Origin: an uncultured Verrucomicrobiae bacterium
GTDB lineage: Bacteria > Verrucomicrobiota > Verrucomicrobiia > Limisphaerales > J093
Assembly: GCA_937976685.1 (NCBI GenBank)
Contig: CALJWR010000243.1
Span: forward strand, 1-36,386
Direction: 5' to 3'
Length of the DNA stretch: 36,386 nt
Below the pieces are notes generated by a model. That model did not search any database and was not told the DNA's origin. It saw nothing but the letters and a program-made list of their open reading frames with translations. Positions 23,521 through 29,377 of this stretch are shown piece by piece; position 1 is the stretch's first letter, and the number at the start of each line of letters is the position of its first letter. A program made the translations under genes and the position numbers.

Positions 23521-24852
23521 TCAGCCGAGTGCGGCCCACACCTGGCAAATGCTGTCAACGAGGTGCTGATCCACCCGTTCGGTGAACTTCGGACCGACGC
23601 GGATCTGGACGAAGCGATCGAAGATTTCGAGCGTCTGGGGACAGGCTGCCGGCCCGTACTGAATCGTCCGGCCTTCGGCAGTCTGGAATGACGGCCAGGC
23701 TGGGTGTCGGGCACGCTTGGCCATCACCGCTTCTTCGACTGGCAAAAGGACGGACCCGACCAGCGTCGAGGCCGGCACGCTCCGCCGCCGCAACTCCGTC
23801 AGACACCGGTCGCGCGTGGTCTTATCCCGCACCTCGAAAAAGGCCGAATGGCCGATGTCGCCCGCCGGGTCGGGCTGCTGGCGCAAGCGAATGCCGGGCA
23901 GGTCGCGGATGCCGGCGTAGATGGCGCCGGCGTGACGTCGCAGGTCGGCAACCATGCGTTCCAGCTTGGGCAACTGCGCACCGAGCACCGCACCGGTCAG
24001 TTCGCTCATGCGGAAATTCTCCCCGGCAAAAACCGGTTCGCGGGCGCCGCCCGTCCGTTGCTCGAACAGGGGCCGATAGCCGCCCATGTCGTGGAAACGG
24101 ACCGCGCGCTCGTAGAGGCGAGGGTCATTCGTCACCAGCGCGCCGCCTTCGCCCGAGGTAATGGTCTTGTTGATCTGGAAGCTGTAAATGCCGATGTCCC
24201 CCAGCGAGCCAAGCTTGCGTCCTTTGTAACTGCCGCCCACGCATTGGGCGCAGTCCTCGACCACCGCGAGGTTTCGCCCGCGGGCGATCGCAAGAATCGG
24301 GTCCATGTCGCAGGGGCCGCCAAGCAAATGCACCGCGATCACAGCCTTGGTGCGGGGCGTGATCTTGCGAGCGAGGTCTTCGGGATCGAGCGTGAGCGAG
24401 CGGTCTATCTCCGCGAACACCGGCAGCGCGGCGCTGTGGACGACGCAGGTGTAATCCGACCACCACGTGTAGGCCGGCACGATCACGTCGTCACCGGGAC
24501 CAATTCCCAAGGCGGCCATCGCGCAGTCGAGCGCCGCCGTGCCGGAGGTGACGCCCAGCGCGAACTTCGTCCCCATATACTGCGCGAAGGCCTCTTCGAA
24601 CCCTTGCACCTTCCGGGGTTGGCCCGGTCCCCAGTAACGGAATGGCGAGGCTGTTTCGCACACCTCCAGCAGGGCGCGGCGTTCAGCGTCGTCGAAGTAC
24701 GCCGGGCCGACGAACCCGGGGTCGGTGTTCAGCGGCGATTCCGCCGCGGTCGCGCGAAGCCCCCCGCCAACGAGCGACGAGGACACCAGCGCGCCGGCAA
24801 CGAACTCCCGGCGGGTCAATCTGGCCGGAGAATCTGGACGAGGAGAATTCAT
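23521..24852 (-). CDS. Tat-exported DegT/DnrJ/EryC1/StrS-family PLP aminotransferase
   Basis: The 443-residue protein starts with a twin-arginine signal (T13-R-R-E-F, hydrophobic 18-31, cleavage about A-T-A-A). The full DegT fold follows: T-S-G-T-A-A-L-D (102-109) for the PLP phosphate, V-V-E-D200-C-A-Q with the Asp that binds the pyridine nitrogen, and the Schiff-base lysine K229 in S-F-Q-I-N-K-T-I-T-S-G-E-G-G. All key residues are kept, so it looks active. Relatives transfer an amino group from glutamate to nucleotide-linked keto-sugars in the cytoplasm, so a Tat signal is unexpected; folded cofactor-bound export is what Tat allows. The ATG at 24852 is the first that gives the whole signal. 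It diverges from a Tat-exported Gfo/Idh oxidoreductase. Confidence 0.9.
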   Translation of the reverse strand: MNSPRPDSPARLTRREFVAGALVSSSLVGGGLRATAAESPLNTDPGFVGPAYFDDAERRALLEVCETASPFRYWGPGQPRKVQGFEEAFAQYMGTKFALGVTSGTAALDCAMAALGIGPGDDVIVPAYTWWSDYTCVVHSAALPVFAEIDRSLTLDPEDLARKITPRTKAVIAVHLLGGPCDMDPILAIARGRNLAVVEDCAQCVGGSYKGRKLGSLGDIGIYSFQINKTITSGEGGALVTNDPRLYERAVRFHDMGGYRPLFEQRTGGAREPVFAGENFRMSELTGAVLGAQLPKLERMVADLRRHAGAIYAGIRDLPGIRLRQQPDPAGDIGHSAFFEVRDKTTRDRCLTELRRRSVPASTLVGSVLLPVEEAVMAKRARHPAWPSFQTAEGRTIQYGPAACPQTLEIFDRFVQIRVGPKFTERVDQHLVDSICQVWAALG

Positions 24853-24989: not shown

Positions 24990-26279
24990 ATGAAGCAACT
25001 CTCTCGTCGTCGTTTTCTGGAAGCGTCCGCGCTGGGCGCTGCAATGGTCACGTCGTTCCCGTCCGTGGGGCGCGCGGCGGAGCCGGACCGGAAGTTGAAG
25101 CTGGGGCTCATTGGCTGCGGTTGGTACGGGATGGTGAACGTCGAGGCGGCATTCAAGGTGGGCAGCGTTGAAGTGGTCGCGCTGTGCGACGTGGACACCG
25201 AGCACTTGGAGCAGAGCGCCCGCAAAGTGGAGTCGCTGCAAGGCAGCCGGCCGAAGACGTTCAAGCGGCACGCCGATCTCCTCGCGGTGGACGGACTGGA
25301 CGCGGTGATCATCGCGTCGCCGCCCCAGTGGCACGCGCTGCAACTGATTGACTCGCTGAATCGCGGTCTGGATGTGTATTGCGAGAAGCCGCTGGCGTAT
25401 GACATCCGCGAGTGCCGGGCCATGGCGGATGCCGTGAAGCGCAGCGGGCGGATCGTGCAGATTGGTTTTCAGCGGCGGCAAAGCCCGGCGTTTCAGGCCG
25501 TCCGGGAGCATGTCAAGGCCGGCCACGCGGGGCGCATTGTTTGCGCCGAGGCGACGATCAACTACACGGCGGGCACCAAGGATCCCACGCCCCAACCGCC
25601 GCCGGCATCCCTGGACTGGGACCTCTGGTGCGGGCCGGCCCCGCAGATTCCGTACAGTCCCCAAGTGGGGCATTTCAACTGGCGGCTGGAAAAGACCACC
25701 GGCCACGGCCACCTCGTGGACTGGGGCATCCACCTGATTGATGCCGCCCGGATGATTCTGGGCGAGACGGCGCCGCAGACGGTGTCGGCCAGCGGGGGAC
25801 TGTACCATCTGCGGGGCAGGATCACGACGCCCGATGTGCTCACGGCGCACTTCGAGTTTGCCTCGTGCCCGTTGACCTGGCGGCACCGCCTGTGGGGCGC
25901 CGAGGAATACAGTCCGGAGGTTTCCAACGGCATCTTCCTCTACGGCGAAACGCAGACCCTCTTCGTCACGGACGACCGGTGGGTGGTGATTCCCAAGGGC
26001 AAGAACGCGGAGCGGCAGGTCAACCGGCAGGGGGCAGACACGGGCAAATTGCACGTGGCCGAATTCCTCAACGCGGTGCGTACCCGTCAGGCGCCCGGCT
26101 GCCCGGTGGAGCAGGGGGTGCATTCGACCACCGCCGTCAAGCTGGCCATGATCGCCTACGAGACCGGGGCGAAAATCGCGTGGGATGCCGGACGCGAGGA
26201 CATTGTTGGCAATCCGGCGGCAAGCGCGCTGCTCAAGCGCGAGTATCGTCAACCGTGGCAGCATCCTTACCGGGCCTGA
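24990..26279 (+). CDS. Tat-exported Gfo/Idh/MocA oxidoreductase
   Basis: The 429-residue protein carries a clear twin-arginine signal (S5-R-R-R-F-L-E-A, hydrophobic helix to about 25, cleavage near G-R-A-A). The Rossmann loop G-L-I-G-C-G-W-Y-G (39-47) follows, then C-E-K-P-L-A with the catalytic Lys, and D-W-G-I-H-L-I-D for the second catalytic block. Zymomonas glucose-fructose oxidoreductase is a known Tat-exported member that holds its NADP tightly and cycles it without release. A similar tightly bound cofactor is inferred here, as no free NAD(P) is expected outside the cytoplasm. It is divergent from the Tat-exported aminotransferase and upstream of a secreted protein and rhamnulokinase. 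Confidence 0.92.
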   Translation: MKQLSRRRFLEASALGAAMVTSFPSVGRAAEPDRKLKLGLIGCGWYGMVNVEAAFKVGSVEVVALCDVDTEHLEQSARKVESLQGSRPKTFKRHADLLAVDGLDAVIIASPPQWHALQLIDSLNRGLDVYCEKPLAYDIRECRAMADAVKRSGRIVQIGFQRRQSPAFQAVREHVKAGHAGRIVCAEATINYTAGTKDPTPQPPPASLDWDLWCGPAPQIPYSPQVGHFNWRLEKTTGHGHLVDWGIHLIDAARMILGETAPQTVSASGGLYHLRGRITTPDVLTAHFEFASCPLTWRHRLWGAEEYSPEVSNGIFLYGETQTLFVTDDRWVVIPKGKNAERQVNRQGADTGKLHVAEFLNAVRTRQAPGCPVEQGVHSTTAVKLAMIAYETGAKIAWDAGREDIVGNPAASALLKREYRQPWQHPYRA

Positions 26280-26309
26280 ATCTGAAGCCGGCTCGGTGAG
26301 GTCGGACGG

Positions 26310-26330
26310 ATTCGCGCCAATGGCGTGAAT
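26310..26330. promoter_or_regulatory. 21-bp near-perfect palindrome upstream of the secreted-protein gene
   Basis: ATTCGCGCCA and TGGCGTGAAT are inverted arms around one central A, with a single mismatch. The centre lies about 67 bp before the GTG at 26387 and about 40 bp after the oxidoreductase stop. Size and symmetry fit a dimeric regulator operator; the regulator is unknown. Confidence 0.35.
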
Positions 26331-26386
26331 TCCCGGTCATTCGAGGACACAACCGCCCGGGCTCGGGACACTTTTGCGATGAGGCC

Positions 26387-27829
26387 GTGAAAACAACGAT
26401 CGCAACGGGATATCTGGTGGTGGCGCTGGGGATTGCCGCGGGTGAGAGGGCGTCGGCGGCTAACGCGGCGGAGTTCTACCTGCCGGAGAACCCGAACTAC
26501 ACCATCGTGGCCTCAACCCTCGATTCGCTGCGGTTCACGGTGGACAAAACGCTGAAGCTCGATCGCTGCGGGCACCTCGTCTCCATCTCGAGCTTCGTGA
26601 ATCCCGAAGGCGAAATCATGGGCTGGCACGACTTTGGGAATCTCGAAGGCCCCGGCTGGGCCGCCAACGCGGTCGGGGGTGCGTGGGAAATCTGGTCGTG
26701 GGGCCGATTCACGGGCGACGCTTCCCGGCAGCGCCAGGCACTGCGGATCCTGGACCACGTCCTCGACTGCGGTTTCCTCAACGAACGCACGGGCTTTATC
26801 CGCGGCTATCGCGAGACCACCACCGGGCGCTTCGTGCTCAACTACAAGCAGAACTCCGAGTGGTGCTGCCCGGGCTCGCTGGCGAAAGTCGCCTTTCAGT
26901 TGCTCCGCTTTGCTGACGATCTGCCGGCGACCGACATCCGTCGCGACCGGATGCGTCGGATGGCGGTCCGGACGGCTGAGTGGATTGTGGCGAATGTTGA
27001 ACCAGTGACCAATGGCTGGTTTCCGCGGCGCACGACCGTGGATGGGAAGATCGTCCGGCGTTCGCCCGACGGCGGCGACGATCCCTTCTGGCAGACCAGC
27101 GCGGACGGTCTCTTCATCCTGCAACTGCAGGCGGCGTTGACCCAGCGGCGCCTGGCGGATTACCGGCGCCCGTTGCGCGAAAAGGTGGCGGTGTTCATGG
27201 GGGCCGGCGGCATCTTCGGGAGCATCAACCACGACACCTACGATCCGCACGAAAACGTGGCGTACTCGGTGGCGTTCCGGACGCTGCTGCTGGCGTCACG
27301 GGTCTTGAACGATCGCGCGATTCGACAGTTTGCCTACGACCGCTGTCTGGCCGGGCTGGATCAGTTCAAGATGACCGAGGATCGCAACACCGTCGCTACG
27401 AAGGGCCTCCTGTACATGGAGAAATCTTGGGACACAGCCTATCTGTGGGAGAATGCCGAGGCGGCGCTGGCGTATTTTGAAGCGGCGCAGGACTCCCGAC
27501 GCGAACGAACGAGGGCGCGGAGCTACGAACTCGACGGGCTGACCATCCTGCGGGCCGCGGCGAAACACCATTACGGCCCGCACGGCTTCCTCACCGAAGG
27601 TGTGGATTGGAACGACCACGTCGGGCAGCAGCATCACATCGGGCAGGCGAAGTACGGCGCGATCCAGTACACCGAGCCGTTCCTGAACAACCAGCACATC
27701 GCGGAACCCACGCTCTTCTACCTCGAGCACCTCGCCACCAAACGACGTCGCGGTAACCTGACCGAGTGGGTTGATTTGGAGGGCAACGTGCTCTGGTGCC
27801 GCGAGCGGCGGGAACCAACCCGGCCTTAG
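26387..27829 (+). CDS. Secreted protein of unrecognised family, probably all-helical
   Basis: The 480-residue product has a signal peptide (about 1-25, A-S-A-A) after a GTG start; no in-frame ATG fits the signal. The body is rich in Trp, Tyr, His and Arg, with repeated helices of about 40-60 residue spacing, such as would fit an alpha/alpha-barrel. Conspicuous motifs are G-W-H-D-F-G-N, Q-N-S-E-W-C-C-P-G, D-P-F-W-Q-T-S-A-D-G, N-H-D-T-Y-D-P-H-E-N-V-A and E-G-V-D-W-N-D-H-V-G-Q-Q-H-H. They could form a sugar-binding active site. Position after an exported oxidoreductase and before rhamnulokinase suggests carbohydrate processing, perhaps a glycosidase or lyase. I do not recognise the family. Confidence 0.75.
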   Translation: MKTTIATGYLVVALGIAAGERASAANAAEFYLPENPNYTIVASTLDSLRFTVDKTLKLDRCGHLVSISSFVNPEGEIMGWHDFGNLEGPGWAANAVGGAWEIWSWGRFTGDASRQRQALRILDHVLDCGFLNERTGFIRGYRETTTGRFVLNYKQNSEWCCPGSLAKVAFQLLRFADDLPATDIRRDRMRRMAVRTAEWIVANVEPVTNGWFPRRTTVDGKIVRRSPDGGDDPFWQTSADGLFILQLQAALTQRRLADYRRPLREKVAVFMGAGGIFGSINHDTYDPHENVAYSVAFRTLLLASRVLNDRAIRQFAYDRCLAGLDQFKMTEDRNTVATKGLLYMEKSWDTAYLWENAEAALAYFEAAQDSRRERTRARSYELDGLTILRAAAKHHYGPHGFLTEGVDWNDHVGQQHHIGQAKYGAIQYTEPFLNNQHIAEPTLFYLEHLATKRRRGNLTEWVDLEGNVLWCRERREPTRP

Positions 27830-27845
27830 ATTGTTGTTGTTCAGG

Positions 27846-27861
27846 AGCCGGAATTCCGGCT
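27846..27861. promoter_or_regulatory. 16-bp perfect palindrome upstream of rhaB
   Basis: AGCCGGAATTCCGGCT is perfectly self-complementary. It lies 17 bp after the upstream stop codon and 38 bp before the rhaB start. It could be an operator for rhaB or part of a terminator for the gene before it; no T-run follows. Confidence 0.35.
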
Positions 27862-27898
27862 TGTCGCTTCGGGGCACTTCGATCATCTCTGCCCGGCC

Positions 27899-29377
27899 AT
27901 GACTGAGAAGATTTACCTCGCCATTGACTTGGGAGCGGAAAGCGGCCGCGTGATTGCCGGGCGCTGGAACGGGCGCCGGATCCGGATCGACGAGATCCAC
28001 CGTTTCCCCAACGGACCGGTTTATCTGGGCGAAACGATGCGCTGGGACATCCTCCGGCTTTGGGGCGAGATTCAGGCGGGGCTCGCCATGGCCGCGAAGC
28101 GCTTTGGACGCCGTATCGTTTCCGTCGGTGCCGACACCTGGGGGGTGGACTTCGTGCTGCTCAGCCGGCGGGACGAGTTGCTGGGGCTGCCTTACCACTA
28201 CCGCGACGCGCGCACCAACGGGGCAATGCGACGGGCATTCCGCGTGGTGCCCCGGCAGGAAATCTTCGCGCAGACCGGTCTGCAATTCATGCAGCTCAAC
28301 ACGCTCTACCAGTTGCTGGAGTTCAAACGCGGGAATCCGGAGCTGCTCGAACAGGCGGACTGCCTCTTGATGATGGCCGACTTTTTCCACTGGGCGTTGT
28401 CCGGCGCGCGCGTGGTCGAGTTCACCAACGGCTCCACCACGCAATGCCTCAACCCGGTGACCCGCTGCTGGGCGGGCGAACTGCTCGACCGCTTCGAGCT
28501 TCCCAGGCGAATCTTTCCGAAGATCGTTCCGCCCGGATCGGCGTTGGGCACGCTGCGCGAATCCGTCGCTGCCCGGACGGGACTGGGGCGCATCAAAGTG
28601 GTCGCGCCGCCGACCCACGATACCGCCTCCGCCGTGGCAGCGGTGCCAACCGCGTCCACCGGCAGGCCGAATTGGGCTTATCTGAGTTCCGGAACGTGGT
28701 CCCTGATGGGCGCCGAGATCCAGCAGGCTTCCTTGTCGCCGCGCACGCTGGCGTTGAATCTGACCAACGAAGGCGGCGTGGACGGAACGTATCGGTTGCT
28801 CAAGAACATCATGGGGCTGTGGCTCATTCAGCAGTGCAAGCGGTCGTTCGACCGCGCTGGCAAAGCCCACAGCTATGCCGAGCTGGAGCAACTGGCGGCG
28901 GCCGCCCGGCCCCTTCGCTCGTTCGTGAACCCGGATGATCCCCGCTTCCTGAATCCGCCCGACATGCCGAAAGCGATTCAGTCGTTTTGCCGGGAGTCCG
29001 GCCAGCCGGTGCCTCGCTCAATCGGCGAACTCGTCCGGTGCGCCCGCGAGAGCCTGGCGCTTCGCTACCGCCACGTCCTTGCTTCTCTGGAGGAAATCAC
29101 CGGCGAGACGGCGGAGGCCATTCACATCGTGGGTGGCGGCTCCAAAGATCGCCTGCTCAACCAGATGACCGCCGACGCCTGCCGACGCCCCGTCATCGCC
29201 GGGCCGGTAGAGGCCACCGCGCTGGGCAACCTGCTGATGCAGGCACGAGCCGATGGCGAACTCGGCTCGCTGGCGGAACTTCGCGCCACCGTACGCGCGT
29301 CTGTCGAAGTCACGAGGTTCGAGCCTGTCGCACCCGAGGCGTGGGACGCAGCGGCGGAGCGAGCGCCCTTCGCGTAG
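27899..29377 (+). CDS. rhaB: Rhamnulokinase (FGGY kinase family)
   Basis: The 492-residue protein has the FGGY fold and rhamnulokinase features: A-I-D-L-G-A-E-S-G-R-V at the N-terminus, A-D-T-W-G-V-D, H-Y-R-D-A-R-T and G-L-Q-F-M-Q-L-N-T-L-Y-Q-L. The segment P-T-H-D-T-A-S-A carries the catalytic Asp, and the ATP-site part includes N-I-M-G-L-W-L-I-Q-Q-C and H-I-V-G-G-G-S-K-D. It should phosphorylate L-rhamnulose to L-rhamnulose 1-phosphate in the cytoplasm. The isomerase RhaA and aldolase RhaD are not in the window. With the preceding secreted protein and exported oxidoreductase, the locus points to use of a rhamnose-containing glycan. Start ATG at 27899. Confidence 0.93.
   Translation: MTEKIYLAIDLGAESGRVIAGRWNGRRIRIDEIHRFPNGPVYLGETMRWDILRLWGEIQAGLAMAAKRFGRRIVSVGADTWGVDFVLLSRRDELLGLPYHYRDARTNGAMRRAFRVVPRQEIFAQTGLQFMQLNTLYQLLEFKRGNPELLEQADCLLMMADFFHWALSGARVVEFTNGSTTQCLNPVTRCWAGELLDRFELPRRIFPKIVPPGSALGTLRESVAARTGLGRIKVVAPPTHDTASAVAAVPTASTGRPNWAYLSSGTWSLMGAEIQQASLSPRTLALNLTNEGGVDGTYRLLKNIMGLWLIQQCKRSFDRAGKAHSYAELEQLAAAARPLRSFVNPDDPRFLNPPDMPKAIQSFCRESGQPVPRSIGELVRCARESLALRYRHVLASLEEITGETAEAIHIVGGGSKDRLLNQMTADACRRPVIAGPVEATALGNLLMQARADGELGSLAELRATVRASVEVTRFEPVAPEAWDAAAERAPFA

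Follow-up and report, generated by a model that had tools for sequence, protein, structure and literature searches.

Can a sugar aminotransferase of the DegT family work outside the inner membrane? The question is raised by a gene in the window (the whole 36,386-nucleotide stretch of DNA analysed here) whose product, P0001, carries a twin-arginine (Tat) signal ahead of a DegT-type domain. To our knowledge, the characterised DegT sugar aminotransferases are cytosolic. A literature search for a Tat-exported DegT protein found no description of one, which is weak evidence of novelty as few subscription journals were covered. The original prediction was that P0001 is exported and, it was suggested, that together with a Tat-exported oxidoreductase encoded next to it, it oxidises and aminates a sugar in two extracytoplasmic steps. 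We find that the export half of this proposal is real, and better supported than could be known at the time, and that the family does not conserve the two-step pairing.

A complete DegT active site behind a twin-arginine signal

The interval originally given for the gene was correct, and its strand, which had been left out, is the minus strand (Table 1); the plus-strand reading of 23521-24852 is interrupted by a stop. The Pfam model PF01041 matches P0001 with 266.8 bits against a gathering cut-off of 19.8. The N-terminus reads MNSPRPDSPARLTRREFVAGALVSSSLVGGGLRATAA followed by ESPLN and then the DegT-type domain, and its Tat-type signal, LTRREFVAGALVSSSLVGGGLRATAA, is presumably cleaved between ATA and AE. 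A false start or frame artefact was dropped as an explanation, as every orthologue whose 5' end is complete has core and signal in a single open frame.

The PLP site is complete and lies where it had been predicted, with K229 within FQINKTITSGEGG and D200 within VVEDCAQC. When 24 members of the P0001 clade were aligned with the other DegT proteins of our tree set (see below), S103-G104-T105, W130, D200, Q203, S224, K229, N279 and R281 were invariant in the clade (24/24), and E235, the glutamate of GEGG, was kept in 23 of the 24. From established knowledge of the family we take D200 to pair with the ring nitrogen of PLP, and W130 to occupy the position of the aromatic residue that stacks on the cofactor. 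With the catalytic residues invariant across the clade, we dropped the possibility of a dead enzyme. A sugar 3-dehydratase of the ColD/E1 type is excluded as well, because a histidine would replace the PLP lysine in such an enzyme and K229 is present in every member.

Table 1. Positions in the window of the Tat-DegT gene, its predicted features and the neighbouring oxidoreductase gene.
Feature	Coordinates	Strand	Evidence
Tat-DegT aminotransferase CDS, P0001, 443 aa	23521..24852	-	translation; PF01041 E 4.3e-79; family 48-77% identical
Predicted Tat signal peptide, residues 1-37, TRREFVAG..., A-x-A at ATA/AE	24742..24852	-	sequence; RR in 29/29
D200 codon	24253..24255	-	24/24 in clade and all other DegTs aligned
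K229 codon (PLP Schiff-base lysine)	24166..24168	-	24/24 in clade and all other DegTs aligned
Clade-specific C-terminal segment, residues 375-400	23653..23730	-	column comparison; candidate substrate-specificity region
Tat-signal Gfo/Idh/MocA oxidoreductase, P0003, divergent neighbour	24990..26279	+	PF01408 E 5.6e-19; TIGR01409 above cut-off

The signal is kept in a patchy family that spans four phyla

Searched with P0001, 84,980 species genomes yielded 16 loci, 57-69% identical, from Planctomycetota (mostly Phycisphaerae), Acidobacteriota and Omnitrophota. Within the window's own order the family was present in 9 of 319 other genomes (50-77% identity), and a sample of Phycisphaerae contained it in 10 of 298; a scan of a viral collection found no member. 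The Tat-DegT family thus spans four phyla (Verrucomicrobia-type, Planctomycetota, Acidobacteriota and Omnitrophota) and its distribution is patchy.

The 29 family members whose 5' end is complete all have an RRx[FL] motif and a hydrophobic stretch ahead of the DegT core, which bears out the predicted twin-arginine signal. These comprise 24 N-termini, two of them scored by eye, and five from a later set; the R-R pair is invariant and the flanking residues vary. For three loci the N-terminus could not be used, as L020 and L022 begin at the edge of a contig and L199 is joined to an unrelated repeat. Near position 480 of L199, the DegT core runs in frame with Sel1-like repeat sequence (YRKAAALGVTSGTTALD), a fusion that probably arose during assembly. 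Among relatives at least 48% identical and complete at the 5' end we found none without the twin arginines.

Eight orthologue N-termini were compared with the NCBIfam Tat model TIGR01409, and every one matched, two scoring over its curated cut-off and six under it. The N-terminus of the window protein itself gave no TIGR01409 match and stayed below the thresholds of the Tat HMMs tried, so that the motif and the orthologues are the grounds for calling it a Tat protein. The window's own genome encodes TatC (E 6.9e-50). Together, these data suggest Tat export of the window protein. With the twin-arginine signal kept in all complete relatives and the active site intact, P0001 is probably an exported, active PLP enzyme.

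P0001 resembles KdnA and has a putative substrate region of its own

We modelled residues 38-443 with AlphaFold2 from an input of 70 sequences, in which DegT proteins from viral contigs were added to the orthologues (pLDDT 93.7, pTM 0.93). The best PDB match of the model was KdnA, 8-amino-3,8-dideoxy-D-manno-octulosonate transaminase (PDB 5k8b), with a Z score of 51.0 over 380 residues at 2.3 Å, the next being 47.1; the best 50 PDB entries were DegT-type enzymes of aspartate-aminotransferase-type fold (Z 42.8-51.0). KdnA is also the best sequence match (profile E 2.6e-79, about 34% identity). The P0001 clade and KdnA-like proteins have in common an FRY motif near residue 72 and DPxGD at 328-332, both mostly absent from the other DegT proteins aligned, and R72, G331 and D332 are present in all 24 clade members. 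By its clustering with KdnA and by these two motifs, P0001 is a member of the KdnA-like DegT subgroup.

By its enzyme name, KdnA acts on a free sugar acid and not on a nucleotide-linked one. The premise of the original prediction, that DegT enzymes use only nucleotide sugars with glutamate as donor, is therefore too narrow. It is contradicted too by BtrR (PDB 2c7t), a DegT-fold protein whose PDB name is glutamine:2-deoxy-scyllo-inosose aminotransferase and whose substrate is a free cyclitol ketone, and by NtdA, which takes 3-oxo-glucose-6-phosphate (PMC8788734).

Unlike Tat-DegT, the KdnA chain in the PDB begins at the DegT core, without a signal. Moreover, the KdnA-type motif WH[IV]Y, with its H371, is replaced in the clade by P371 (24/24), followed by a conserved NKRxRHxxWPSF. 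On this replacement we rejected identity with KdnA itself, the enzyme of 8-amino-Kdo synthesis. In the clade-specific C-terminal segment, K379, H383, W386, P387 and S388 occur in 24 of 24 members and R382 in 22. From this pattern we infer that the segment sets a substrate different from that of KdnA-like enzymes, possibly an acidic one.

A proposed route to the envelope

We think it likely that P0001 is an active DegT PLP aminotransferase which the Tat system exports in folded form with its cofactor and which works in the envelope. The protein would fold and bind PLP in the cytosol, and the twin-arginine signal, identified by sequence and conservation, would then take the holo-protein to TatC for transport. 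Once the signal was removed, the mature enzyme would transaminate a keto- or amino-sugar that is not nucleotide-linked, as its kinship with KdnA and its location would have it. The ketone could come from any of the organism's many Gfo/Idh oxidoreductases, with no fixed partner. Such a route has a precedent in pyoverdine maturation, where the PLP enzymes PvdN and PtaA are exported folded by Tat, PvdN requiring cytosolic PLP binding for its transport, and they establish that periplasmic transamination exists (PMC6206403). Unlike Tat-DegT, neither is a DegT sugar aminotransferase, and their target is a siderophore of pseudomonads, in which they modify a glutamyl side chain (PMC6206403).

Two separate clades of Tat-DegT proteins

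We built a maximum-likelihood tree of 66 DegT proteins from family-bearing genomes with five PDB references, after the automatic signal label had been corrected by eye: a charge filter had missed L061 and L087, and L100 had been wrongly flagged. The 24 rows of the window family, every one with a Tat signal, form one clade (support 100/100), nested in a 100/100 group of 31 rows with KdnA and six signal-less cytosolic DegT proteins. A second all-Tat clade (13/13 with a signal, support 100/100) is placed near BtrR, its nearest reference, an enzyme of antibiotic biosynthesis that lies outside the P0001 clade. The layout of the second clade is a signal followed by KLAxxGGxPVR. Its members are L103 (G000:C240), L066, L069, L070, L071, L073, L075, L079, L087, L089, L091, L094 and L095. 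Both types of Tat-DegT co-occur in several genomes, that of the window included.

A single origin of both clades was rejected (p-AU 0.0005, a cost of 74 log-likelihood units) in a test that was framed after the tree had been seen and on a limited sample. Evidently, DegT enzymes have gained a Tat signal, or lost it, on more than one occasion.

Gene context and alternative readings

We looked for a conserved gene neighbourhood across the orthologue loci and found none, which means that the neighbours do not reveal the pathway. What they have in common is the processing of carbohydrates outside the cytoplasm and not membership of a single operon. In the window the Tat-DegT gene lies between the divergent gene for P0003 and, on its other flank, a convergent S46 peptidase gene. 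The plus-strand run 24990-29377 contains the P0003 gene, a gene at 26387-27829 whose product has an apparent signal peptide and no Pfam match, and an FGGY sugar kinase gene, and is possibly a sugar-use operon.

Secreted hydrolases are frequent near the orthologues, and they are consistent with a catabolic role, in which the exported DegT protein would deaminate amino sugars of the envelope or the diet, or an amine that an amidohydrolase had released; a keto acid would take up the nitrogen, and the resulting keto-sugar would be available for later use. A PF04734 ceramidase-like gene lies directly downstream of Tat-DegT in four loci: in L048 7311-11411 and L049 7683-11710 (minus strand), both Verrucomicrobia-type, Gfo/Idh, Tat-DegT and PF04734 genes follow one another in the same direction, and in L050 and L054 Tat-DegT is followed by the PF04734 gene. 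Other neighbours include a sulfatase (L056), a DUF2961 protein (L193) and GH2-/GH9-like proteins (beside L057 and L011). Transamination is reversible, which would allow this direction. However, no hydrolase family is common to all loci, and characterised DegT enzymes run toward amination. We regard a catabolic role as possible and, on this balance, somewhat unlikely.

The reading put forward in the original prediction was a dedicated extracytoplasmic pathway, in which a Tat-exported Gfo/Idh protein oxidises a sugar hydroxyl and Tat-DegT aminates the resulting ketone. Such chemistry is established in the cytosol, where in kanosamine synthesis of Bacillus subtilis the sugar 3-dehydrogenase NtdC oxidises and NtdA then aminates with glutamate (PMC8788734); the envisaged pathway would be a periplasmic analogue. 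NtdA has a DegT fold like that of P0001 but is a distant match (E 3.5e-24), and unlike the window pair NtdA and NtdC are encoded in an operon, act on a sugar phosphate and are cytosolic. The divergent Tat-Gfo/Idh gene favours the proposal at this locus, and a Gfo/Idh gene also adjoins the orthologue in L048, L049, L011 and L017, making 5 of 31 loci. Two further loci point the same way: L051, with a 3-keto-disaccharide hydrolase gene (PF06439) immediately upstream, and L064, where ThuA genes adjoin the orthologue. Gfo/Idh genes were found near 12 of 32 orthologue loci (469 kb) against 9 of 40 loci chosen arbitrarily from those genomes (780 kb), a density of 3.2 versus 1.7 per 100 kb that is biased in favour of the orthologue loci, as the search models were seeded from them.

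Against a dedicated pathway, 20 of the 32 loci have no Gfo/Idh gene within about 10 kb, several of these loci ending early at contig ends. L048 and L049 are close relatives of each other, and apart from this pair the adjacent Gfo/Idh proteins are mostly non-orthologous (28-47% identical where compared). The genomes carry 57-91 Gfo/Idh genes each, so about one chance adjacency is expected in 31 loci and the enrichment is at most mild. A check of co-occurrence had been suggested as a way to test the pairing; with flanks of about 1 kb searched, no member of the second Tat clade (0/13) lies beside a Gfo/Idh gene, as opposed to 8 of 28 cytosolic DegT genes. Together with the 5 of 31 loci in the window family, this comparison indicates that Gfo/Idh adjacency marks some cytosolic DegT proteins more than exported ones. 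We therefore discarded a conserved NtdC/NtdA-like pair of Gfo/Idh and DegT proteins: P0003 is a candidate partner of P0001 here, and the association is not conserved across the family. A dedicated two-step pathway seems to us improbable.

The eight cytosolic DegT genes that do lie beside a Gfo/Idh gene (L067, L068, L074, L076, L083, L088, L090 and L093) are candidates for NtdC/NtdA-like pathways.

That P0001 is not exported at all and works in the cytosol as KdnA does, with a twin-arginine segment that is vestigial or tethers the protein to the membrane, would fit the sub-threshold HMM scores of the window N-terminus. However, a relic would decay, and the conservation of the motif in every complete member from four phyla, in a separate second clade, and without exception among the 5'-complete relatives at least 48% identical counts heavily against this; we consider it very unlikely. 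A non-enzymatic PLP- or sugar-binding protein, for which the odd location speaks and nothing else does, is scarcely credible with all catalytic residues invariant.

Probable sugar transamination outside the inner membrane

That catalytically intact Tat-DegT proteins occur in four phyla, and that a second clade arose separately, implies that sugars are transaminated beyond the inner membrane. Extracytoplasmic sugar transamination may even be recurrent in Verrucomicrobia-, Planctomycetota-, Acidobacteriota- and Omnitrophota-type bacteria, through at least two independently evolved Tat-DegT families that would add amino groups to, or remove them from, free or polymer-bound glycans with periplasmic donors, a generalisation that we offer tentatively. 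Tat-DegT is a concrete, purifiable target for the handling of amino and keto sugars by glycan degraders that are mostly uncultured, and could tell whether exported glycans gain or lose amino groups. The window's genome also encodes a third Tat-DegT protein (L104, G000:C89:2000-5500), which sits on a long branch near cytosolic DegT proteins whose genes adjoin Gfo/Idh genes.
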